Shown here in pieces: positions 26,479 through 39,496 of a DNA stretch of 40,939 bases. The notes under the pieces were generated by a model. The model made no database searches. It was not told where the DNA came from and saw only the letters and a program-made list of their open reading frames with translations. The stretch spans positions 1 to 40,939 of the forward strand of contig JAHECO010000034.1 of NCBI GenBank assembly GCA_024641705.1, in the 5' to 3' direction. A program made the position numbers and the translations under genes. Position 1 is the stretch's first letter, and each line of letters starts with the position of its first letter. This DNA is from Candidatus Kryptoniota bacterium. GTDB taxonomy: Bacteria; Bacteroidota; Ignavibacteria; Kryptoniales; JAKASW01.

Positions 26479-27387
26479 TCATTGAACGCTGACCTTGCGT
26501 TCCTTCGGCGCACTCGCGTCGATAAACTTCTGGTCGAGTTTCGCGCGAACTTTCTCCAGAGGCATTGCGACTCCGGTCCAGAGCTCAAATGCTTTGGCGG
26601 CCTGGTAATAGAGCATTTCAAGCCCGCTGACAATAATGGCATTCTTCTTCCTCGCCGTCTTGAGGAAGGCGGTGTGGACGGGGTTGTAAACCAGGTCGAA
26701 GAATATCTTGCCTTCGAGATCGACGGTGTCATCGATCATGATGCTCTCGCCGACGCCGGGGAACATTCCGACAGGAGTAGCGTTCACCACGAGCTTACTC
26801 TTCTTGATGGCCTCAGCCTCGTTGAGGTTGTGCAGCTCGTTTATCTTTATGTTCCTGTAGTTCTGCGAATCGGCGAAGAATTTCTTCAACAGTTCGGCGC
26901 GCGATGTATCCCGGTTGATTACGTAGATTTGCTCCGGGCGGAAATACGATATCAGCGAATACACCACAGCCCTTGCCCCGCCTCCCGCTCCGAACAAGGT
27001 CACCGACTGGTTTGAAATCTGTTCCCTGAATGGTTTCAGCGCCTCGACGACCCCGTCGACGTCCGTATTATGGCCGACAAGCATCTCGTTCTCGACATAA
27101 ATGGTGTTGACGGCGCCTACCAGCCTCGCATCGGCAGAGACCTCGTCCAGGAATTCGAGGACGGCCTCCTTGTGCGGCACAGTCACGTTGCAGCCGACTA
27201 TGCCGAGCGCAGTAAGACCCTTCAGGGCATCGCGAAGGTATTTCGGCAGGACATCGAAAGCCGCGTACTCGTAGTTCTGCTTCGTGAATTTGAAAGCCGT
27301 TTCATGAATTATGGGGGACCAGCTGTGGACAATCGGATGTCCGATTATTCCAACCAGTTTAGCGTGGGTCTTTATATTTTTTCTCAT
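26479..27387 (-). CDS. aroE: Shikimate dehydrogenase
   Basis: Reduces 3-dehydroshikimate to shikimate with NADPH, step 4 of the shikimate pathway. The 302-residue protein carries IIGHPIVHSWSPIIHE (substrate Ser residues), NVTVPHKEAV with the catalytic Lys, VGHNTDVDGV with the catalytic Asp, the dinucleotide loop GAGGGARAVVYSL, NATPVGMFPG, DLVYNPVHTAFL and GLEMLYYQAAKAFELW. All expected catalytic residues are in place. It is about 25 residues longer than E. coli AroE, mostly in the tail. Its start lies 29 bases inside the end of the upstream TPR gene, so the two are translationally linked. aroK and aroB are 15 kb away. Confidence 0.96.
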   Translation of the reverse strand: MRKNIKTHAKLVGIIGHPIVHSWSPIIHETAFKFTKQNYEYAAFDVLPKYLRDALKGLTALGIVGCNVTVPHKEAVLEFLDEVSADARLVGAVNTIYVENEMLVGHNTDVDGVVEALKPFREQISNQSVTLFGAGGGARAVVYSLISYFRPEQIYVINRDTSRAELLKKFFADSQNYRNIKINELHNLNEAEAIKKSKLVVNATPVGMFPGVGESIMIDDTVDLEGKIFFDLVYNPVHTAFLKTARKKNAIIVSGLEMLYYQAAKAFELWTGVAMPLEKVRAKLDQKFIDASAPKERKVSVQ

Positions 27388-28822
27388 TCACCAACCATTC
27401 GTAGACGGGAAAGACAAATTTGATCAGGATCTCCGGGTTGGAGTGTTGAATCTGCCCGAAGTCCTGGAAGAATGTACTTATTTTGTGGGGTTCCAGCTCC
27501 AAAGACTTCTTGGCGCTCTCTATAGCTTCCTCGAATGAACCGTTCTGCAGGCAACATTTACATTTTTGATAATACGCTTCGCTCCAGTCGGGCGAAATGC
27601 TGATTACCCGATTGTACGCCTCAAGAGCTTCTGCGTGCAGATCGCATTCGCTGAGCGCATCGCCGAGATCCAACCAGCCGTCGACGTTCTCCGGCTGGAT
27701 CTCGATAACTTTGCGATAGCTCGCGACCGAGGCCTCGAACAACTCCAGTGTAAACTCCACATCGCCCCTGGCGTGCCATACGTCGGGATCGGAAGGATTC
27801 AGGTCCGCCGCCTTGGCGAAATCGCCGAGGGCCTTGCGGTACATACTCATGGCGTCGTAGCAAACCGCTCTGCCGAATAGAGACTCGACATGGTTCGCGT
27901 CCGACTTGAGCGCCTCGGTGTAGCACCTGATGGCATCACGATATTCCCCGAGCTCCTCGTATGCGGTCGCCATATTGTGCCAGGTCGCGACGTCCTTGGG
28001 CTCGTACTTCAGCGTCGTCCTGTAACTGTCGATCGCCTCCCTGAGCTTCCCCATACTGAGAAGCGCGTTGCTTCTGTTATACCAGGCAGCACTGAATTTC
28101 TCATCGATGGCTATCGCCATCTCGTAACTCTCCACCGCGGTCTGGTACTTTCCCAGTGCGTTAAGCGAGATGCCGCGGTTGTACCACGCACGGTGGTTGT
28201 AAGGATCGAGCTCGATGACCTTGTCATAGCACTTCAATGACTTGTCAGGCTGATCCAGGTAATCGTAGCAATAGGCAAGCTCGAACCACGCGTCCTTGTC
28301 GGAAGGATCAAGCTCGGTCAGGTATTTGAAAACCTTCGACGCCTCCTCGTACCGAGTGAGCTTCTCGAGAATGACTCCCTTATTCATGAGTGCTTCGTAG
28401 CTGCCAGGATCTACGTCGAGGGCACGCTCGGTGCTGTCAAGCGCCTCTTCGAACCGGTCGAGCATCTGGAGACAGCTGGCGCGTCCGATGAGTGCATCGA
28501 CTTCTATGGGATTGAATTCCAGAGCCCTCGTGTAGTCTTCAAGGGCCTCTTCAAACTTCCCCAGAGTCTCGTTAATCTCTCCCCTGCGGAACCAGTTCTC
28601 GGAACTAACCGGCATCACGGAGATCAGTTTGTTTGCAAAGAAGAGAGCATCCTCGTACTTGTCCTGGCTCATGAAGTAGTCGATTATTTCCTCGAGAGCG
28701 GCGATGCTCGAAAAGGTAGGTTCTTCCCTGCGAAGGCGCTTTATCTCTTCGTTGATATTGCGCTTTTCGAATTCGTCATATTCGTCGTCGTCGAAACTGA
28801 AGTCAAAATCGTCATTCCGCAT
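27359..28822 (-). CDS. Tetratricopeptide repeat protein
   Basis: A 487-residue protein made almost entirely of TPRs, about 12 in tandem from residue 40 to 465. Typical repeats read W..RG......G.FEEALEDYTRALEFNP and AWYNRGISLNALGKYQTAVESYEMAIAID. It begins with a very acidic segment of Asp, Glu and Phe (FDFSFDDDEYDEFE). There is no signal peptide or membrane segment, so it is probably a cytoplasmic scaffold. The partner is unknown. A good promoter lies just upstream. Its 3' end overlaps aroE, though nothing in the TPR sequence hints at shikimate metabolism. Confidence 0.92.
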   Translation of the reverse strand: MRNDDFDFSFDDDEYDEFEKRNINEEIKRLRREEPTFSSIAALEEIIDYFMSQDKYEDALFFANKLISVMPVSSENWFRRGEINETLGKFEEALEDYTRALEFNPIEVDALIGRASCLQMLDRFEEALDSTERALDVDPGSYEALMNKGVILEKLTRYEEASKVFKYLTELDPSDKDAWFELAYCYDYLDQPDKSLKCYDKVIELDPYNHRAWYNRGISLNALGKYQTAVESYEMAIAIDEKFSAAWYNRSNALLSMGKLREAIDSYRTTLKYEPKDVATWHNMATAYEELGEYRDAIRCYTEALKSDANHVESLFGRAVCYDAMSMYRKALGDFAKAADLNPSDPDVWHARGDVEFTLELFEASVASYRKVIEIQPENVDGWLDLGDALSECDLHAEALEAYNRVISISPDWSEAYYQKCKCCLQNGSFEEAIESAKKSLELEPHKISTFFQDFGQIQHSNPEILIKFVFPVYEWLVNEKKYKDPR

Positions 28823-29159: not shown

Positions 29160-29294
29160 TCACCTGTACAGTCCGATCGATTGCAGATACCCTCGATCAT
29201 GCTCGAAAGGCCTTCGGTTCAAATCGTTGGTGAAACCCACGTAAATGAAATCCCTGATCAAGCTTCTGAGAACGTAGACACACCACCACGACAT
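29160..29294 (-). pseudogene. Truncated duplicate of the GIY-YIG gene
   Basis: The frame starts MSWWCVYVLRSLIRDFIYVG, nearly identical to the intact gene 439 bases away, and keeps the same ribosome-binding site (AGGAGG). After 44 residues it meets TGA just after LYR, where the intact copy continues YRPLELVAY. The sequence after that point no longer matches, so this is a 3'-truncated copy, not a point mutation. It lacks the metal-binding Glu region and cannot be an active nuclease. Confidence 0.8.
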
Positions 29295-29481: not shown

Positions 29482-29733
29482 TCAATCTCCAATGATCCTT
29501 CTCTTAAGAATCGCCTTCCCTGAGCCCCGTTTGAAGTACTTTTCCAGAGTGCGGGCCCTTGCCTCAGTTGTAACAGCAACATACGCCACCAACTCTAACG
29601 GTCTATAAGCTTTCGTGGATTGTACATACCCTCGGTCATGCTGGAGAGATCTTCGGTTTAAATCGTTCGTAGAACCCACATAGATGAAATCCCTGACCAA
29701 GCTTCTCAAAACGTAAACATACCACCACGACAT
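29482..29733 (-). CDS. Small GIY-YIG nuclease-domain protein (intact copy)
   Basis: An 83-residue stand-alone GIY-YIG protein of the usual length for this family. The motifs are WYVYVLRSL (GIY position), DFIYVGSTNDLNRRSLQHDRG (YVG with the Asn-Asp-Leu-xx-Arg helix), YRPLELVAYVAV, and ARTLEKYFKRGSGKAILKR with the metal-binding Glu. AGGAGG lies five bases before the ATG. It belongs to a different subgroup from the GIY-YIG protein at 8.7-9.0 kb (they share the fold but little sequence). It starts 153 bases downstream of tRNA-Ser(CGA) on the same strand, and its stop abuts the tRNA remnant of the duplicated copy. Its cellular role is unknown. Confidence 0.9.
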   Translation of the reverse strand: MSWWYVYVLRSLVRDFIYVGSTNDLNRRSLQHDRGYVQSTKAYRPLELVAYVAVTTEARARTLEKYFKRGSGKAILKRRIIGD

Positions 29734-29901
29734 AACCCCCTCCTGGCTTCCGTTTCAACTAATATCCTATCCCTTCAAAACTCTGCCGGCATCTGCGGAC
29801 ACGAGACGAGACTTCAACGTAGTGTGGGCCTACCACACGAAGCCCTAGCGTAATATCGGCCCGCCACACGAAGCCTTGGCGCAGTGTGGCGGAGAGGGAG
29901 G
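29617..29901. repeat. Right copy of the tandem duplication
   Basis: The counterpart of the segment at 29178-29431. It covers the first half of the intact GIY-YIG gene, the spacer and the 3' end of the intact tRNA-Ser(CGA), where the match ends inside the T arm. Equivalent points are 439 bases apart in the gene and 470 apart at the tRNA, because of about 31 extra bases in the spacer here. Confidence 0.85.
29862..29891. repeat. Palindrome overlapping the 3' end of tRNA-Ser(CGA)
   Basis: CGCCACAC (29862-29869) and GTGTGGCG (29884-29891) are exact reverse complements, with an inner GCC-TT-GGC. The last five bases belong to the tRNA (its discriminator, CCA and last stem base). A further small hairpin, GTGTGG-GCCTA-CCACAC, lies at 29822-29838. 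Confidence 0.7.
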
Positions 29902-29976
29902 GATTCGAACCCTCGATACCCCGAAGGGTATTCCGGTTTTCGAGACCGGCCGATTCAACCACTCTCGCACCTCTCC
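29887..29976 (-). tRNA. tRNA-Ser (anticodon CGA)
   Basis: A 90-base class II tRNA that reads UCG codons. The acceptor arms GGAGAGG and CCTCTCC pair fully. The anticodon stem is CCGGT/ACCGG around loop CTCGAAA, giving anticodon CGA. The long variable arm ATACCC-TTCG-GGGTAT is typical of serine tRNAs, and the T arm is GAGGG-TTCGAAT-CCCTC. The 3' CCA is encoded, unlike in its neighbour. Confidence 0.95.
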
Positions 29977-30013: not shown

Positions 30014-30101
30014 CGGAGAGGGTGGGATTCGAACCCACGTACCGCTTGTGACGGTAACTCGCTCTCCAGGCGAGCCGATTCAACCACTCTCGCACCTCTC
30101 C
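30014..30101 (-). tRNA. tRNA-Ser (anticodon GGA)
   Basis: An 88-base class II tRNA that reads UCC and UCU. The anticodon stem is CTCGC/GCGAG around loop CTGGAGA, giving anticodon GGA. The variable arm TACCG-TCACAAG-CGGTA and T arm GTGGG-TTCGAAT-CCCAC are both well formed. The acceptor stem and first 26 bases match those of the CGA tRNA. CCA is not encoded; the genome reads CTG after the discriminator G. The two tRNAs are 37 bases apart and probably co-transcribed. Confidence 0.95.
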
Positions 30102-30225: not shown

Positions 30226-30918
30226 ATGACCGCAGAACGGGCTATCTTGAACGGAATGAGAGGAGCCGTTGCAATATTCAGCAAGGATCTATATAGCGAG
30301 CTTCGCACCCGCTATGCCCTCAATTCCCTGCTGATGTTCGTGGTTGTCACGCTTTCTATAATCCTTTTCTCTACTGCCGGCGAGACCGTCTCCCCGAGCC
30401 TTTCTGCGGGCATTCTCTGGATTATCATTTTCTTTGCCGCCATGAGCGGCCTTTCTCGCTCCTTCGTCAGTGAAGAGGAGCGCGGCACCTCGATGACGCT
30501 GCAGCTCTGGGTCACACCGTCATCCGTGCTGGTTGGGAAGCTCCTATTCAACTCGCTGCTGATCTACATCCTCAACGTGATGATTATACTCGCCTACATG
30601 TTGACTATGCCGTCTTTCGTCGTCAAGACCCCTCTCATCTTCTTCACGACGATCCTCATAGGCACGTTCGGCCTTTCGGCTGCCTCGACCTTCATAGCTG
30701 CCATTATTTCGAAGGCAAACTCGAAAGGAACTCTGTATCCTGTCCTTTCGTTCCCTATTTTGTTACCACTTCTTATGAGCGTTATTGATGCAACTAGATT
30801 GTCGGTAGACGGGGCAGCTTTTGGGGAAGCTATCGGTGACTTCAAGATCATGTTCTCCTACTGCGTCGTCGTGACTACGGTTGCCATTGTTTTGTTCGAC
30901 TTTGTCTGGAGAGATTAA
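30226..30918 (+). CDS. ccmB: Heme exporter/cytochrome c maturation permease CcmB
   Basis: The membrane subunit of the CcmAB(C) ABC complex that releases holo-CcmE after heme loading. The 230-residue protein has about six membrane segments, starting after AIFSKDLYSELRTRYALNS, a stretch typical of CcmB. FAAMSGLSRSFVSEEERGTS and LWVTPSSVLVGKLLFN follow, both close to the family pattern. I chose ATG 30226; the frame is open further upstream but that part does not resemble the family, and ATG 30256 is a second candidate. The next gene starts directly after its stop codon. The gene for the ATPase partner is not next to it but may be the one at 37.2-37.8 kb. Confidence 0.88.
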   Translation: MTAERAILNGMRGAVAIFSKDLYSELRTRYALNSLLMFVVVTLSIILFSTAGETVSPSLSAGILWIIIFFAAMSGLSRSFVSEEERGTSMTLQLWVTPSSVLVGKLLFNSLLIYILNVMIILAYMLTMPSFVVKTPLIFFTTILIGTFGLSAASTFIAAIISKANSKGTLYPVLSFPILLPLLMSVIDATRLSVDGAAFGEAIGDFKIMFSYCVVVTTVAIVLFDFVWRD

Positions 30919-31596
30919 GTGAAAAATTGGATGAAAATCGGAATCGGTGTCTGGATCGCCGCCGTTGTCGCCATAGGTCTCGCTATGCCGATAGGATATA
31001 TCCCCGGGTTGGGCGCCAAAGCGCGCATAATTTTCTTTCATGTGCCGATGTCGTGGCTCGCGGTGCTGGCCTTCTTCATGTCGATGTGGTACGGTATTGC
31101 GTACCTCAGGAAGAAGGACATGACGCTCGACATCAAGTCCGCCACTGCCGCGGAGCTCGGCTTCATATTCAGCATCCTCGCGACCATAACCGGGTCGATA
31201 TGGGCGAAGTTCAACTGGGGAAGCTTCTGGAACTGGGACCCGAGAGAGACATCGATCTTCGTTCTCCTCTTGATCTACGGCGCATATTTCTCGCTTCGCA
31301 GCGCACTGGAAATCGAAGAGAGGCGAGCGACCCTGTCTGCCGTGTACTCGATCGTCGCTTTCGTAACGGTGCCCTTCTTTGTCTTCATTATGCCCAGAAT
31401 GATGACGGGACTTCACCCCGGCGAGGGTTCCCCCGCCCCGATCGTGAACGCAAGCGGGAAGATGTATATGGATGCCAACATGCGCTACGTGTTCTACGCT
31501 TCCCTCCTTGGATTCAGCTTCCTCTACGTCTGGCTGTTTCAGCTGAGGTCAAAGATCGGCATACTGTCATACAATAACCACACGGAGATTGAATAA
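30919..31596 (+). CDS. ccmC: Heme-handling protein CcmC
   Basis: An inner-membrane protein that presents heme to CcmE. The 225-residue length and six hydrophobic segments fit. The tryptophan-rich WWD-type motif WGSFWNWDPRETS is present, with one heme-ligand His before it (FFHVPMSWLAV) and one after (TGLHPGEGSPAP). The gene starts with GTG immediately after the ccmB stop codon; an ATG four codons later is the alternative. The ccmD start codon touches its stop, so translation is coupled through the whole operon. Confidence 0.93.
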   Translation: MKNWMKIGIGVWIAAVVAIGLAMPIGYIPGLGAKARIIFFHVPMSWLAVLAFFMSMWYGIAYLRKKDMTLDIKSATAAELGFIFSILATITGSIWAKFNWGSFWNWDPRETSIFVLLLIYGAYFSLRSALEIEERRATLSAVYSIVAFVTVPFFVFIMPRMMTGLHPGEGSPAPIVNASGKMYMDANMRYVFYASLLGFSFLYVWLFQLRSKIGILSYNNHTEIE

Positions 31597-31758
31597 ATGG
31601 GTTCCCTCTATAATTTCCTCAACGCGCACTCCCTGTACGTAGTGCTGGCAATAGTTTTGGTCATCTGGCTGGGAATTTTTATCTATTTGTATCGTTTAGA
31701 CAAGAAGGTGAACAAGTTGTTTGAGAAGAATGCTGTGGAAAAGGAGAATATGAAATGA
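31597..31758 (+). CDS. ccmD: CcmD family small membrane protein
   Basis: A 53-residue protein with one membrane helix (LYVVLAIVLVIWLGIFIYLYRL) followed by a charged tail (DKKVNKLFEKN...). CcmD helps release holo-CcmE from the CcmABC complex. Small size, single helix, basic tail and position between ccmC and ccmE are all as expected, although the sequence itself is too short for certainty. The ATG directly follows the ccmC stop codon and the TGA overlaps the ccmE ATG by 4 bases. Confidence 0.82.
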   Translation: MGSLYNFLNAHSLYVVLAIVLVIWLGIFIYLYRLDKKVNKLFEKNAVEKENMK

Positions 31759-32165
31759 AGGCCAAATACATTGTTGCCGGCGTTGTAGTGGTCGCTTTCG
31801 TCGTGTTCGGCGCGATTTCTTTCATGCAGAATAACATAGCCTACGTCTCTGCGAAAACTGCGGAACAGACTCACAGGACGGTGCAGGTAAAGGGATCGTG
31901 GGTAAAGGACATGAAAACGTACTACGACCCGAACACGAATACATTCCACTTCTATATGATGGATGACGAGAAGACTATCCTGCCGGTAGTGCTCGCAGGC
32001 GCAAAGCCGAACAACTTCGAGATCGCAAACGATGTCGTCGCGAAAGGCCGGTACGAGAACGGAGTCTTCCAGGCCAGCGAAGTTTTGACCAAGTGTCCCT
32101 CCAAATACCAATCCAAAACAGGACCCCAGGCCTCCGCGCAAGAGGCGTCAAGCAGCTATAACTAA
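31755..32165 (+). CDS. ccmE: Periplasmic heme chaperone CcmE with CxxxY motif
   Basis: A 136-residue protein with an N-terminal membrane anchor (YIVAGVVVVAFVVFGAISF) and a periplasmic beta-barrel domain, which receives heme from CcmC and hands it to CcmF. Most bacterial CcmE proteins bind heme through His in HxxxY. Here the position reads VLTKCPSKYQSK, so C114 stands in for His with Y118 in place. The tail after it is short and Ser/Ala-rich. The Cys form is known from archaea and some Desulfovibrio-like bacteria as part of 'System I*'. Whether heme is held covalently by Cys here is inference. The start overlaps ccmD and ccmF follows 12 bases after the stop. Confidence 0.92.
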   Translation: MKAKYIVAGVVVVAFVVFGAISFMQNNIAYVSAKTAEQTHRTVQVKGSWVKDMKTYYDPNTNTFHFYMMDDEKTILPVVLAGAKPNNFEIANDVVAKGRYENGVFQASEVLTKCPSKYQSKTGPQASAQEASSSYN

Positions 32166-32177
32166 GAAGGGTACATA

Positions 32178-34556
32178 ATGCTGGGCCAAGCGTTGATATA
32201 CGTGGCATTCGGCGGAATGCTGACTGCCACCTTTGCATATACATACAATTTTTTCAGCAAAGATGAGAAATATCTAAAGGTAGCGAGGATCGGGTTCCAT
32301 GTCGGTGCCGTCTTCATAATTCTGACCGCCGGCTATCTGATGAACCTCGTCCTCACCCACCAGTTCCAATACACTTACGTCTGGAGCTACAGCTCATACG
32401 CGCTTCACCCTCCCCTGCTGATATCATCTTTCTACGTCGGACAGGAAGGGAGCTTCATGCTGTGGACGATGTACACTGCCATAATAGGTCTGATCCTCAT
32501 GGTGTACGCGAGAAAGCACCATTACGAGGCATCGGTAATGGGAATATTCTCCGCGATAGCGGCGTTCCTTGTGCTCATGACGATGGCAAAGAACCCGTTC
32601 GAGCACGTGTGGCAGACCTGGCCTCAGACGGTACAGAAGGGGTTCATGCCGGACGACGGCCGGGGACTTAATCCGCTTCTCGAGAACCTCTGGATAGTCA
32701 TTCATCCTCCGATCTTGTTCCTCGGTTTCGCGTCTACCGCCGTGCCCTTCGCCCACGCGTTCTCCGGCCTGCTCAGGAAAGACCACGACAGTTGGATAAA
32801 GGTCGCGGTGCCCTGGACGCTTTTCACATCGGCAGTGCTCGGATTCGGAATAACGCTCGGCGGATTCTGGGCCTACGAGACTCTCGGCTGGGGAGGCTTC
32901 TGGGGCTGGGATCCGGTCGAAAATTCCTCGTTTATTCCCTGGTTGTTTGCCGTAGCCTCGATCCACACGCTCCTCGTGCAGCGGCGGACCGGCGGCTTCA
33001 AGAGAGCCAACTTCATCATGGGAATGATGCCATTCCTGCTGGTTCTCTACAGCACGTTCCTGACGCGGTCCGGCGTGTTGGGCGATACCTCCGTCCACAG
33101 CTTCGTCACACCCGGCATGTGGGTATACGTCCTCCTGGTAATATTCATCGCTTTCTTCTCGATACTCGGCTTCGGCTTATACCTGCTCCGCGTCAAGGAT
33201 ATCCCCAGAGAAAGAATCAACTACACTCTCACCTCGAGAGAGTTCGCCCTATTTCTGGGCGCATCGGCTCTTGTCGTCATTGCCGGGTTCACGCTCATAG
33301 GAACGAGCGCACCGCTAATCAGCAACATCATAAAAGGAAAGCCGAGCGCCATCGACACGAGTTATTACGTAAAGACCAATCTGCCGCTTGCGATCTTCAT
33401 GGCAGCCATGATCGGCCTCGGCCAGCTGTTCTGGTGGAAGAAATCCAACTCGCAGACGCTCCTGAGGACGATCCAGATGCCTCTCACCGCCGCGACGATT
33501 GTGACTGCAATAGTGATAATAGCGGGAATGCGAGACATCGGGATGATCCTCTTCTTCATCACAAGCGCATTCGCTTTTTTCGTGAACCTGGAAATCGCGT
33601 ACAAGATAGCCAAGGGTAATCCGAAATTTCTCGGGGCTTCCCTTTCGCATATAGGCGTCGCGGTGCTATTCGTGGGGATAATCGCGTCCACACATTACGA
33701 CAAACACATTACACTTGCCCTTCCGCAGAATCAGCCGGCCCAGGCGTTCGGGTACGAACTCACATATGTCGGCCCCCAGCAGCTCGACAACGAGAAGACT
33801 GCTTACAACGTCATAGTTCAGAGCGGTCAGAGCAAGTTCAATGCACCGCTTATCATGTACGCAAGCTCGTATAACGACGGCGCCATCATGCGCCACCCTT
33901 ACATCTTCAGCCTGGTTAACTATGACGCCTTCACCCATCCGCACCTCCTGGCCTTCATCGCGGGCAACATGCTCACGCGCGACCTCTACCTGTCCCCGCA
34001 GTCGCTGGAACAGGAAGGCGGCAGCGGTCTGCAGTCTTCACAATACGGAATTGCAGTCCCTCTGACTTTGAACGAACCCGCGACCGTCGGCAGGTACACT
34101 TTCACGTTCCAGGGGTTCCAGGTCCCCGCTAACGAAAGACAGGCAATGATAGGCGGGAAAGCATTCCAGCTCGGCTCGATCGTGAAACTGACGACTTCGG
34201 ACGGCAAGACGGAGATGATCATGCCGTCAAACAGGATAGACCCGACCGGTACCTCGGAGCTTCATACGGTCACCACCAAGTCCGGCGATGCGTTTACCGT
34301 TACAGACGTGCATGTCGATGATAAGACCAAGCTGGCCTCTATCGATCTCGCCTACATGCCTGCCAAGCGGTCGCCGGATATCTCCCTTTTGAAGCAGGCT
34401 CAGCAGCAGTCTCAGAATACGAAGCAGGTGCTTGTAATTGAAGCCACCATCAAACCTTTCATAAACCTCGTGTGGGGTGGAGTGATAATCATGGTCATCG
34501 GCTTCATCGTCACATGGAGAAGGCGCCGCGAGGATCTCTTGAGAGAATCGATCTAG
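32178..34556 (+). CDS. ccmF: Cytochrome c heme lyase subunit CcmF
   Basis: A large polytopic membrane protein (792 residues) that ligates heme from CcmE to apocytochrome c. It shows the CcmF core: MLWTMYTAIIGLILM, IHPPILFLGFAS (heme-ligand His), the WWD motif LGWGGFWGWDPVENSSFIPWLFA, HTLLVQRRTGGFKRANF, and TRSGVLGDTSVHSF. A periplasmic C-terminal region of about 240 residues follows, and a last helix near the end (LVWGGVIIMVIGFIVTWRRR). It is 120-150 residues longer than typical proteobacterial CcmF, mostly in that region. AGAAGGG precedes the ATG. No ccmG, ccmH or ccmI follows; the next gene is convergent. Confidence 0.95.
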   Translation: MLGQALIYVAFGGMLTATFAYTYNFFSKDEKYLKVARIGFHVGAVFIILTAGYLMNLVLTHQFQYTYVWSYSSYALHPPLLISSFYVGQEGSFMLWTMYTAIIGLILMVYARKHHYEASVMGIFSAIAAFLVLMTMAKNPFEHVWQTWPQTVQKGFMPDDGRGLNPLLENLWIVIHPPILFLGFASTAVPFAHAFSGLLRKDHDSWIKVAVPWTLFTSAVLGFGITLGGFWAYETLGWGGFWGWDPVENSSFIPWLFAVASIHTLLVQRRTGGFKRANFIMGMMPFLLVLYSTFLTRSGVLGDTSVHSFVTPGMWVYVLLVIFIAFFSILGFGLYLLRVKDIPRERINYTLTSREFALFLGASALVVIAGFTLIGTSAPLISNIIKGKPSAIDTSYYVKTNLPLAIFMAAMIGLGQLFWWKKSNSQTLLRTIQMPLTAATIVTAIVIIAGMRDIGMILFFITSAFAFFVNLEIAYKIAKGNPKFLGASLSHIGVAVLFVGIIASTHYDKHITLALPQNQPAQAFGYELTYVGPQQLDNEKTAYNVIVQSGQSKFNAPLIMYASSYNDGAIMRHPYIFSLVNYDAFTHPHLLAFIAGNMLTRDLYLSPQSLEQEGGSGLQSSQYGIAVPLTLNEPATVGRYTFTFQGFQVPANERQAMIGGKAFQLGSIVKLTTSDGKTEMIMPSNRIDPTGTSELHTVTTKSGDAFTVTDVHVDDKTKLASIDLAYMPAKRSPDISLLKQAQQQSQNTKQVLVIEATIKPFINLVWGGVIIMVIGFIVTWRRRREDLLRESI

Positions 34557-34627: not shown

Positions 34628-34855
34628 TCAATTCGATGAAATAAACTTGTAGCCAGCCTTCTCTATTTTGTCCTTCACCTGACCCAGATCCAGTTCTTTT
34701 CTGAATTCCAATTCCACCCGTTTCGCTGCATGGTCCGCCTTCGCAGACTTCACGCCTTCGACTTCCATCAGGGCCTTCTCCACAGTCATCTCACAGTGAT
34801 GGCATGTCATTCCGTCTACTGTCAATGTTGCCTTCTTCGAGCCGAAACCAAACAC
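34628..34855 (-). CDS. copZ: Copper chaperone (heavy-metal-associated domain)
   Basis: A 75-residue single HMA-domain protein that should carry Cu+ to the ATPase. GMTCHHC has the metal-binding cysteines C18 and C21, followed by the usual EMTVEKALMEVEGVKSAKADHAAKRVELEF pattern. The first codon is GTG, strongly supported by AGGAGG five bases before it. It lies 33 bases after the copper ATPase gene, on the same strand, as copZ often does. CopZ is the best-fitting name, though metal specificity is inferred from the neighbour. Confidence 0.92.
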   Translation of the reverse strand: MFGFGSKKATLTVDGMTCHHCEMTVEKALMEVEGVKSAKADHAAKRVELEFRKELDLGQVKDKIEKAGYKFISSN

Positions 34856-34888
34856 CGTCGCCTCCTTTTGATTCTTCGTTGTTGAAAT

Positions 34889-37195
34889 CTATGATCGAAT
34901 TTTGATTCTCTTCAGCCTCAACGAATTGCTGACGACACTCACCGAACTCAGCGCCATAGCTACCGAGGCGATCATCGGGTTAAGCTGCCAGCCTGTTAAC
35001 GGGTACAATGCGCCTGCCGCGAGAGGAATTAATATAACGTTGTAGAAGAACGCCCAGAACAAGTTCTCTTTTATTACCCTGAGCGTTCGTTTGGAAAGGC
35101 CGATCGATAGCGGCACGAGTCTGAGGTCGTTTCTCACGAGCGTAATGTCTGCCGCCTCAACCGCGATATCGGTCCCCGTCGCCATGGCAATTCCGAGGTC
35201 GGCCTGCGCAAGCGCCGGCGCATCGTTAATGCCGTCCCCGACGAATGCCACAACCTCTCCGGTTTCCTGAAGCTCTTTGATCGCCTTATATTTTCCGTCC
35301 GGAAGTATGTTGGCAAAATACTTATCGATCCCCACCTGAGCGGCGATCCTCCTTGCCGCTGCCTCACCGTCTCCGGTGAGGAGCCTCACTTTCAAACCAA
35401 GTTTGCGGACACTGTTTATGGTTTCGACTGCGCTGTCCCTTACGAAATCACTGACAAGGATCGCCCCAAGTATACTATCGCGGCGGGAGACATAGAGAAC
35501 GGTTGCCGCAAGTTCCGTCGATCTACCGTCCACTCTTTCAGCTGCCGACCTTCTTGCTTCACCGTTCGCGTTTTCAGCAACGAACTCGAGTTTCCCGACC
35601 CGGACCTCCGCCGCATCTGCGGAATCCGTAACGTTAATCTGCACACCCCTGCCTGCGAAATTCTTGAAGCCCGAACTGATATTCGAGCCTATGGTGAGCC
35701 CGCGATGTTTCGCCTCGTCTACCACTGCCCTTGCGATGGGGTGTTCTGAATTCGCCTCTGCCAACGCGGCGAGGCCGATCAACTCGTTCTCGGCAATCCC
35801 GTTCAGCGGAATTGTCTCGACGACCCTCATCTCACCTACCGTAACCGTTCCGGTTTTGTCGAAGACAACGCTCGTGATCTTGCGAGCCTGCTCAAGGGCT
35901 TCACTGCTTCGCACAAGTATCCCCATCTCCGCGCCTCGTCCCGTTCCTACCATGATTGCAGTCGGCGTGGCAAGGCCCAGCGCACACGGACAGGCAATGA
36001 TCAACACCGCAACAAATGCCATCAGAGAATGAACCAGGACAGGTGACGGCCCAAGGAGCGCCCATGCTGTCGCCGCCACAAGTGCTGCGACAATCACCGC
36101 CGGAACAAAAACGGACGCGACCTTATCCGCCAGTCTCTGTACGGGCGGTTTGGAAGTCTGGGCTTCTTCCACCAGGCCTGCGATACGCGTTATGAAACTG
36201 TCCTTCCCTATCTTCTCCGCTTTGACTGTCAGGACCCCGTCCAGGCAGACCGTACCACCAAGGACAGGAGTTCCCAGCGTCCTCTCAACAGGAATGCTTT
36301 CCCCGGTCAGCATCGATTCATCCACCATCGAGAACCCGTCGATCACCTGCCCGTCGACCGGAATCCTTTCGCCGGGTCTGACCCGAAGGATGCTGCCGAC
36401 CTGGACGGCAGTGAGCGGAACGTCAACTTCGTCACCGTTTAGCAGGAGATGCGCTATAGCGGGCTGAAGCGCCAGCAGCTTCCTTACGGCCTCAGAAGAC
36501 TTCCATTTCGCTTTCGCTTCAAGGATCTTCCCGAGCAGTATCAGAACTATTATCACGGCACTCGTGTCGAAGTAGACCTGGACCGGTTTGCCAGACGAAG
36601 CGAACACAGCCGGCCAAAGCGTAGCGACGGCACTATACAAAAATGCAGACGCTGTACCTACGGCAACCAGAGTGTTCATATCCGCTGTCTTGTGCCGCAG
36701 GGCCGTCCAGAATCCTTTGAAGAATTGCCCGCCCACATACAACATGACCGGAACGGTCAACAGCATCATAACGACATCCCTCAACCTGTCCCCGATCCCT
36801 CTGACAAACGGGAACACTTCAGGCATGCTTCCGATGAGTATGGGAACTGCCAGAACGACTCCAACAACGAACTTCTGCCAGAGCTTCCTGTATTCCCGTT
36901 CCCTCGCTTTCGATTCAGCCTTAAGGGCGTCCACCTCGTCGGCCGTGTCGATGATCTTGTAACCGGCGTCTTCCACCGCCGACTTCAGCAGGTCGACATT
37001 TACCCGCTCGGGCTCAATCTCGACGGTAGCCGATTCGGTGGCAAGGTTCACGACAGCCTCATCAACCCCGTCAACTTTCTTCAGTGCGGTTTCAACTCTC
37101 AATACGCAGCTTGCGCAAGTCATCCCCTGAACGGGAAGAGTCAATCTAATCTTGTTCTTCGCGCCATTTCGCGGTGTATTGGAATCACTTTCCAT
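34889..37195 (-). CDS. copA: Copper-exporting P-type ATPase (P1B-1)
   Basis: Exports Cu+ from the cytoplasm using ATP. The 768-residue protein has an N-terminal HMA domain (GMTCASC, C27 and C30), eight predicted membrane helices, the CPC motif (402-404), the phosphorylation site DKTGT (D446), an HP motif (SEHPIARA) and [14 protein letters not shown]. The membrane residues YN (FFYNVIL) and MALSS mark it as Cu+ type. I chose ATG 37195 because AGGTG lies six bases upstream; GTG 37204 and ATG 37201 are in frame too. It overlaps the upstream ATPase gene by 11 bases, so the two are coupled, and copZ follows 33 bases downstream. No copper regulator gene is visible. Confidence 0.96.
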
Positions 37196-37826
37196 TACCA
37201 TCACCTAAGCTCTTGCGTAACACGACCTTCACATCCCCAAGCGCAGCTTCATCGCTGTCGTTGGTTGCAAGGACAACTACTTTGTCCTTCCTGTACTGTT
37301 CGATGATTGAGAACACCATATCGGTTCCCGCCAGGTCCAGGTTCGCAGTCGGCTCATCCAGAACGAGTATGTCCGGCTCGTGAATCAATGCGGCTGCGTA
37401 CTTAAGCCTTTGTTTCATGCCGGACGAGAATCCTCGAAGCTCATCGTTCCTTCTATTAAACAATCCCACGAGATTAAGAATTTCCAGGGCGCGATTCTCG
37501 ACTGATTTTGGGAGTTTTCGTGCCCGGATGGCAATCTGCAGATTCTCAAGCGCGGTGAATTCACCGTAAAGCTCAAGATAAGGGGAAACAAGGCCCACGT
37601 GCCTGTGAACATTATCCCTGTCGACTTTTGCACCCCCGTTCGTCATGATGACCTCTCCGGAAGTAGGCGTGAGCACGCCACAAATTATCTTGGAGGCGGT
37701 CGATTTTCCGCTCCCGTTAGGACCGGTTATGGAGAGTACTTCCCCCGATTTCACCTCGAATGAGAGATTGCTGAAAACGACGCGTCTATTGAAAACCTTC
37801 TTGAGATTCTTACCTGTCAGGATCAT
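37185..37826 (-). CDS. ccmA: ABC transporter ATP-binding protein, CcmA-like
   Basis: A 213-residue ABC ATPase. The Walker A motif is GPNGSGKST (35-43), the signature is the unusual FSSGMKQRL (133-141) and Walker B is ILVLDEP (153-159). [17 protein letters not shown] and the SSGMKQ signature are like the CcmA-type ATPases of the FCB group. CcmA powers release of holo-CcmE with CcmB. No permease gene adjoins it, and ccmB, on the other strand about 6 kb away, is the only candidate partner seen, which supports the name; other ABC roles cannot be excluded. Its ATG overlaps the stop of the metalloprotease gene by 4 bases and its end overlaps copA by 11. Confidence 0.68.
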
Positions 37827-39496
37827 TGTCTCCTCACGACGGCGATCTTGCCGACTGCGCTTTTACTGCCATCACTTACTACATAAATATAAACACCGCT
37901 TGCGACATTTCTCCCCGCGCTGTTTCTTCCATCCCAAACAAAATATGTTCCGCGAAGATAACGCATCACATTGACGTCACCCTGTAATTTATTAACCAGG
38001 TCGCCCGACATATCATAAACTGAAAGAGTTGCCCCACTTGTCTCAGTGAACGGATAGGGAATCTTGACTTGCTGCACAGATGGATCGAAGGGTTGCGGGA
38101 AGACCAGATTTGTCTGCTCTACGAGTGCATTTCCGGAGATAAAGGGCACCAGCGACCAGTTTGGATAGTCTGGAACGTCGAAGAAAAGGCAGTTCCCTCC
38201 AGAAAGCTGCCTTACGCAATCCACGCTTCCGTTTGAGATTCCCAGCGAGAATGGATATGTGGAGGTATCGTAAGCGGCTGCGGCGGTGAGATTGTTGTTT
38301 GACACTGCTACCCCGACCGTATCCGGTCCTGCGTAGACCTGAAAAAAATGTTCCGTCATGTGAAGTGCCCGGGCCGAGAAAGTAACTCCACTTTCTGACA
38401 GCGTTCCTGCACCATCCAAAGCGGCGAGCGGATAGTACACCGCAAGCGGGTAAGTCGTGACGTTGAACTGGCTTGCAAGAAGAGTACGATAGCCGGTAAA
38501 ATAGTTCGACTCAGAAAACAATTGAAACGCTGACGGAGCAGAGGTACCAGCGGATTTAAACGCGTCCTCTATCGAGGGTATTGCAGGTTCGCTGGCCATA
38601 TTCTGCCAAATCGACTTCATCAATCCCGCTCCGTATTCATTCTGGACAAAAATTCCGAAGATACATCTCTCGTAGCCGGCATATTCACTTGGCTCGTAAG
38701 TATTAAATGACTTCTGGTTCAGTTCCGAAAAGAAGAGCGGAAGGTACTGGTAATAATCCTTCACGCCGGGATAAACCATCTGTTCCATCCATGTCGATGT
38801 CAGTTCATAGAACCAGAGATCATTTTGCCAGAGCCCGTAGTTCCCGACCTGTATTCCATGATTGAATTCGTGAGCTATCGTGACCTCCATCGCCGGTATG
38901 CCCTGTGTGTAAGTCGACTCAAACTCACTCCTTATCACAGTCCATGTCGCGTAAGCCGGATTTACACGGCTCGTAATTGGGCTCGAAGCATCCCAGTCGG
39001 TATAGCCGTACTCGCCTGTCGGCAGTGCCTCGATATATACATCGTACTCGTTTCCTCCTCCCGCACCGTTATCGGAGGCAGGCGGAGGAAAACCGAGGGA
39101 ATCGACCTCGACCGCATAAACATGATCACAAATATCCGCCACGCTGTCGGCAAAGTCGTACAGGCTTCCCGGAATCTGCTGTCCGTTTGAGTCGTAGAGA
39201 AAAGGTTGGTTGACACCGGAGGTATCGAAGTGAATCCTGAACTTCCCCGATGGGCTCACGATGCTGGTATCACTTGACGGTCTGACCTGAAGGAGCGCTT
39301 TTATCTGAGGGTCGGCGCCCGGTAAACCGAAGAAGTGGGCAATTATATGGAAGCCGCATTTGTTGTACTCCTTCGTGTTGTACGATTCAAAGAGCGCGTT
39401 CATTTGAGTCCGGCGGTCGGAAGTGGCAGCAGATGCACCCATCGGCATTGCGAGAAGTATTGCAAGCGCAATTCTAGAAAGCATGAACTGAGACAT
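37823..39496 (-). CDS. Secreted metalloprotease (MXAN_6640-like) with C-terminal sorting domain
   Basis: A 557-residue exported protein. The signal peptide (LSRIALAILLAMPMGASA) is followed by a domain with the zinc motif HEFNH (H209, E210, H213) and a downstream ELTSTWMEQMVYP that may hold the third ligand. This is the pattern of the MXAN_6640 family of putative metalloproteases. The last 90 residues (LSVYDMSGDLVNKL... GTYFVWDGRNSAGRNVASGVYIYVV) form a FlgD/T9SS type A-like sorting domain, suggesting export through a type IX system and attachment to the surface. ATG 39496 has AGGA six bases upstream. It overlaps the previous gene by 23 bases and the next by 4. The substrate is unknown. Confidence 0.85.
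   Translation of the reverse strand: MSQFMLSRIALAILLAMPMGASAATSDRRTQMNALFESYNTKEYNKCGFHIIAHFFGLPGADPQIKALLQVRPSSDTSIVSPSGKFRIHFDTSGVNQPFLYDSNGQQIPGSLYDFADSVADICDHVYAVEVDSLGFPPPASDNGAGGGNEYDVYIEALPTGEYGYTDWDASSPITSRVNPAYATWTVIRSEFESTYTQGIPAMEVTIAHEFNHGIQVGNYGLWQNDLWFYELTSTWMEQMVYPGVKDYYQYLPLFFSELNQKSFNTYEPSEYAGYERCIFGIFVQNEYGAGLMKSIWQNMASEPAIPSIEDAFKSAGTSAPSAFQLFSESNYFTGYRTLLASQFNVTTYPLAVYYPLAALDGAGTLSESGVTFSARALHMTEHFFQVYAGPDTVGVAVSNNNLTAAAAYDTSTYPFSLGISNGSVDCVRQLSGGNCLFFDVPDYPNWSLVPFISGNALVEQTNLVFPQPFDPSVQQVKIPYPFTETSGATLSVYDMSGDLVNKLQGDVNVMRYLRGTYFVWDGRNSAGRNVASGVYIYVVSDGSKSAVGKIAVVRRQ

Follow-up and report, generated by a model that had tools for sequence, protein, structure and literature searches.

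The window, by which is meant the whole 40,939 nt stretch of Candidatus Kryptoniota DNA analyzed here, carries a cytochrome c maturation operon of the standard Cys type (System I*), and the probability that this reading as a whole is the best explanation is put at about 93%. It rests on the family of the CcmE protein and the position of its cysteine, on this being the sole CcmE of the genome, on the lack of CcmH, ResB and CcmI, on the presence of CcdA, thioredoxins and cytochromes c, and on a conserved gene order. CcmH is absent, and System I* is the right name for the operon.

The ccmE gene (31755–32165, + strand) encodes a heme chaperone of 136 aa that matches PF03100 with 63.2 bits (cut-off 24.6), and it is the single CcmE in the whole 4.62 Mb genome. 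Its CPSKY motif (32094–32108, +) places Cys114 (codon TGT, 32094–32096) at the heme-attachment position and, four residues downstream, Tyr118 as the probable axial ligand, so that the protein has the CXXXY (usually CPSKY) form of System I* in place of the HXXXY of classical System I. For comparison with solved structures, a profile was built from the CcmE proteins of 26 relatives, among which C114 and Y118 are invariant columns. C114 aligned with the Cys of Desulfovibrio vulgaris CcmE (2kct), a construct that reaches its tag just after KCP and is comparable in the motif only that far, with the His of the ..VLAKHD sequence of Escherichia coli CcmE (1sr3 and 8ce8, the chain of the latter having this His as residue 130), and also with the His of 1j6q, a His-type CcmE. 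In this alignment the position of E. coli H130 is occupied by C114, and chance and misalignment are excluded. An AlphaFold2 model (mean pLDDT 86) showed an N-terminal helix followed by a beta-barrel. The three solved structures that matched it best were all CcmE proteins; other OB-fold proteins came next, as is expected for this fold. A sequence-only reading of the window had proposed that Cys replaces the heme-binding His, with C114 and Y118 as the two key residues, and this was confirmed: the alignment with Cys- and His-type homologs places C114 at the heme-binding position, and a second CcmE with HxxxY, another finding that would have spoken against the proposal, does not occur in the genome.

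Around ccmE, the genes ccmBCDEF all lie on the + strand, either overlapping slightly or separated by short gaps. The membrane subunit of the heme-handling ABC complex is encoded by ccmB (30259–30918; PF03379, 60.9 bits, cut-off 24.9), the start of which was set at the ATG of MRGAVAIF within an open frame that extends to 30109. It is followed by ccmC (30919–31596), whose product loads heme onto CcmE; it has a WWD-type motif, WGSFWNWDPRETS, and matches PF01578 (94.1 bits), TIGR01191 (110 bits, under the cut-off) and the CcmC structure 7f02_C (E 1.8e-11). A ccmD-like gene of 53 aa (31597–31758) is above the cut-offs of both PF20077 (33.3 bits, cut-off 23.5) and TIGR04391 (30.3 bits, cut-off 24), and its product has, by eye, a single membrane-spanning stretch. 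Downstream of ccmE is the gene for the heme lyase, ccmF (32178–34556, 792 aa), with a WWD motif and matches to PF01578, PF16327 and Thermus CcmF (6zmq). These family matches bear out the earlier assignment of ccmB, ccmC, a CcmD-like gene and ccmF, which had made no mention of ccmA. The latter, the ATPase of the CcmAB complex (37185–37826, − strand; ABC_tran PF00005, 101.9 bits), lies 2.6 kb downstream of ccmBCDEF on the opposite strand, behind copA and copZ. Its TIGR01189 score of 109.8 bits is below the cut-off of 131.6; it is nonetheless a homolog of the ccmA that relatives carry within the operon, being mostly 35–52% identical to the copies located before ccmB, and the CcmA, B, C and F components of System I* are therefore all present.

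Relatives keep the gene order ccmA-B-C-E-F, and in most of those with enough sequence ccmA precedes ccmB. The nearest named relative (L062, CcmE 83% identical) has the ccmA-copA-copZ order of the window. The nearest named relatives are mostly Ignavibacteria, and the window is placed in this group, in agreement with the earlier suggestion of an FCB-group genome. Two neighbors between ccmF and the far end of ccmA are not Ccm genes: a copZ-like copper chaperone (34628–34855, −; PF00403, 62.9 bits; top NCBIfam model CopZ, 64.9 bits, under the cut-off) and a copA-like P1B-type ATPase (34889–37204, −; TIGR01511, 581 bits, above the cut-off), which overlaps ccmA. The three genes ccmA, copA and copZ (34628–37826, −) converge on ccmF.

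The remainder of the genome, a draft of 95 contigs rated 100% complete and 1.2% contaminated, was searched for the other parts of known maturation systems. No match to the CcmH model PF03918 was found genome-wide at E 0.001, while control genomes were positive, with the limit that the two models used, one from Pfam and a second profile, could miss a very diverged stand-in in a 95-contig draft. CcmI (TIGR03142) gave no match in the genome and was detected in control genomes, and System II ResB (PF05140) likewise gave none, with five control genomes positive; the marker of System II (CcsBA/ResBC) is thus lacking, as is the CcmH of classical System I, and the absence of CcmH agrees with System I*, where it is frequent and not obligatory (PMC3601427). 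The view that the operon lacks CcmH and CcmI therefore holds for the whole genome. Two DsbD/CcdA-type proteins are encoded, one of them of the stand-alone CcdA type, and the CcmG model TIGR00385 picks up five stretches with a thioredoxin fold, all well below its cut-off. Two of the five are TlpA/ResA-like with an apparent N-terminal membrane or lipoprotein anchor, and one of the two is encoded 9 kb away from the gene for CcdA; thioredoxins of this type could stand in for CcmG. The recommended search for ccmH, ccmI and ccmG accordingly returned the first two as absent and the third only as matches below the model cut-off. The related proposal that thiol handling departs from the classical pathway is correct only in part: a thiol-reducing arm is present elsewhere in the genome in the form of CcdA and TlpA/ResA-like thioredoxins. 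Class-I cytochrome c (PF13442) gave seven matches that exceed the cut-off, of which two fall within a single gene, and the frames read there contain CXXCH, so that the Ccm operon has substrates.

One elaboration would add to the System I* reading and not replace it, namely that the CcmF of this clade now does the job of CcmH by means of a longer C-terminal periplasmic part. The window CcmF matches Thermus CcmF (6zmq, 660 aa; E 1.3e-52) across residues 25–540, and about 200 of its 792 residues lie between the end of this match and the last helix, in a genome with no CcmH match. The role is putative, and a substitute need not exist, as Desulfovibrio desulfuricans and archaea are reported to work without CcmH; the idea is considered unlikely.

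Far less probable is that the operon is one half of an ordinary System I, with the classical arm of CcmH, CcmG and CcmI, or else a CcmE of the His type, encoded elsewhere. The genome is a draft in 95 contigs, and CcdA and CcmG-like thioredoxins were indeed found outside the operon, but neither CcmH nor CcmI was detected, there is one CcmE, and the genome is rated complete. A protein with TPR repeats (27359–28822, −; 487 residues) exceeds the Pfam cut-off of TPR_CcmH_CycH and was considered as CcmI; it also exceeds the cut-offs of many general TPR models, which fit it far better, has no TIGR03142 match, and begins with an acidic, soluble segment without the N-terminal membrane helices of CcmI, and the candidate was rejected. 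Across the phylum, canonical CcmH was not seen in 296 genomes: PF03918 matched in seven, two of these above the cut-off, and the four matches that were read (L031–L034) are membrane-anchored proteins that combine a zinc ribbon with a pair of CcmH-like repeats. The seven matches had at first looked like counter-examples; the window genome has none of these tandem proteins. The genes for these tandem proteins adjoin FtrD-like genes, and in L033 and L034 permease genes as well, while the short flank of L031 shows neither.

The Cys form had also been described as associated with the loss of CcmH, and this part of the proposal was not supported. In a Calditrichota genome (G331), a single gene run (L294, contig G331:C460, 4267–9822) encodes a true CcmH (76.8 bits), a CPSKY CcmE and CcmF, so the Cys does not require the loss of CcmH, and about one third of the Cys-type genomes surveyed in 2011 have CcmH (PMC3601427). 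The same Calditrichota genome has a further CPSKY CcmE elsewhere (L130, G331:C298), giving two Cys-type Ccm sets.

Nor is the Cys form rare, as had been implied. The 296 phylum genomes were drawn evenly and CcmE was chosen by Pfam match, not by motif; the search found it in 193. Cys was present in 149/149 of the CcmE genes read, each from a different genome (147 CPSKY, two CPSRY); 146 of these were scored by script and three by eye (the two CPSRY and one CPSKY), and the 44 left out were mostly lower-scoring matches. In Calditrichota, CcmE was found in 35 of 40 genomes and CPSKY in all 30 genes read. A scan of genome contigs with the pattern KCPSKY (80 loci) is uninformative on the frequency of His-type proteins, and frequencies were taken from the Pfam-selected sets alone; a search of plasmid records for His-type CcmE comparators gave no match. 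The Cys-type CcmE is no oddity of the window genome, and is the sole form seen in the sampled Bacteroidota (in the broad sense, including Ignavibacteria) and Calditrichota. That C114 is not used for heme, the CcmE having decayed or been repurposed, is the least credible alternative, with nothing found in its favor, given the invariance of C114 and Y118 in 26 relatives, the Cys in every sampled gene, the intact ccmE frame within a conserved operon and the c-type cytochrome genes of the genome.

By analogy with published relatives, CcmA and CcmB, with CcmC and CcmD, would load membrane heme onto the periplasmic CcmE, where a heme vinyl group would become covalently bonded to Cys114, as a thioether if the protein resembles the CcmE of D. 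desulfuricans; Tyr118 is the probable ligand of the heme iron. CcmF would then receive the heme and, with neither CcmH nor CcmI involved, join it to apocytochromes of the CXXCH type. From elsewhere in the genome, CcdA together with a thioredoxin of the TlpA/ResA-like kind probably maintains the cysteines of the apocytochromes in the reduced state; the choice of one such thioredoxin as the partner of the Ccm pathway would be a guess.

Both the variant and the chemistry it probably uses are in the literature. Cys-type CcmE has been in print since 2006, and tests of it appeared in 2010 and in 2022. The review of Stevens et al. (2011) found CPSKY in 25 of 36 Cys-type genomes and named delta-proteobacteria, Chloroflexi and Firmicutes as holders; it also reports that the system of D. 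desulfuricans is functional in E. coli when CcmG and CcmH are both lacking, and that the Cys binds heme covalently there (PMC3601427). In Methanosarcina acetivorans, the CcmE C120A mutation abolished heme staining and no holocytochrome was formed (PMC9084895). No paper linking CcmE, CcmH and Bacteroidetes with His/Cys was found in the open-access literature.

The closest counterpart is the System I* of D. desulfuricans and D. vulgaris, a system with no CcmG, which shares the Cys at the heme position, CcmABCDEF and the lack of CcmH, as well as the CcmE fold, 2kct of D. vulgaris being matched by sequence and structure. It differs in the place of ccmA, which in the window is detached from the other ccm genes and lies on the opposite strand beyond copA and copZ. 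The M. acetivorans system (CcmABCEF, CXXXY; PMC9084895) is similar in its Cys-type CcmE and in having neither CcmH nor CcmI, but archaeal systems lack CcmD, and CcmF is split in two in Methanosarcina, whereas the window has a CcmD-like gene and a one-chain CcmF. With classical System I of E. coli (HXXXY, CcmABCDEFGH) the window shares CcmA–F homologs and the WWD motifs of CcmC and CcmF; it differs in the change of His130 to Cys and in the absence from the genome of CcmH and a canonical CcmG.

By itself the window genome adds one lineage to a published variant and matters little. The census is a useful by-product, with Bacteroidota and Calditrichota all Cys-type in the sample and canonical CcmH nearly absent from Bacteroidota, and culturable members of the phylum would be convenient for studying heme attachment without CcmH. 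A broader proposal, which is tentative and more doubtful than probable, is that throughout Bacteroidota–Calditrichota the Cys-type CcmE is fixed and inherited, canonical CcmH is absent or rare, and an enlarged periplasmic domain of CcmF does the work of CcmH. If this were true, System I* would count among the main lineages of System I instead of being a variant of scattered occurrence. The CcmE protein has too few residues to resolve a deep tree well.

The oddest feature lies outside the window, a second CcmF near a tandem CcmH-like and an FtrD-like protein in some relatives. In a Calditrichota genome (L295, 4400–10375; G317) and an Ignavibacteria-class genome (L296, 552–6320; G066), that is, in two phyla, CcmF is clustered with a tandem protein that has a zinc ribbon and two CcmH-like repeats (CxCGxC..CxC..), together with an FtrD-like PF10080 protein, an FtsX-type permease and an ABC ATPase. 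This CcmF is on a contig apart from ccmE and is therefore probably a second one. In the 296 genomes the tandem protein occurs at full length eight times, two more matches being broken, and the window genome has no copy. The cluster may form a module of its own, distinct from the main ccm operon, that handles metal or heme.

Other features of the window are of minor note. A 557-residue, secreted-looking protein (37823–39496, −) has a HEFNH metalloprotease-like motif and an apparent C-terminal sorting domain. Two similar small ORFs (29160–29294 and 29482–29733, −) begin with MSWWxVYVLRSLxRDFIYVG and are GIY-YIG-like by eye; they adjoin tRNA genes at 29890–29976 and 30014–30101 (−), in what looks like a local duplication.
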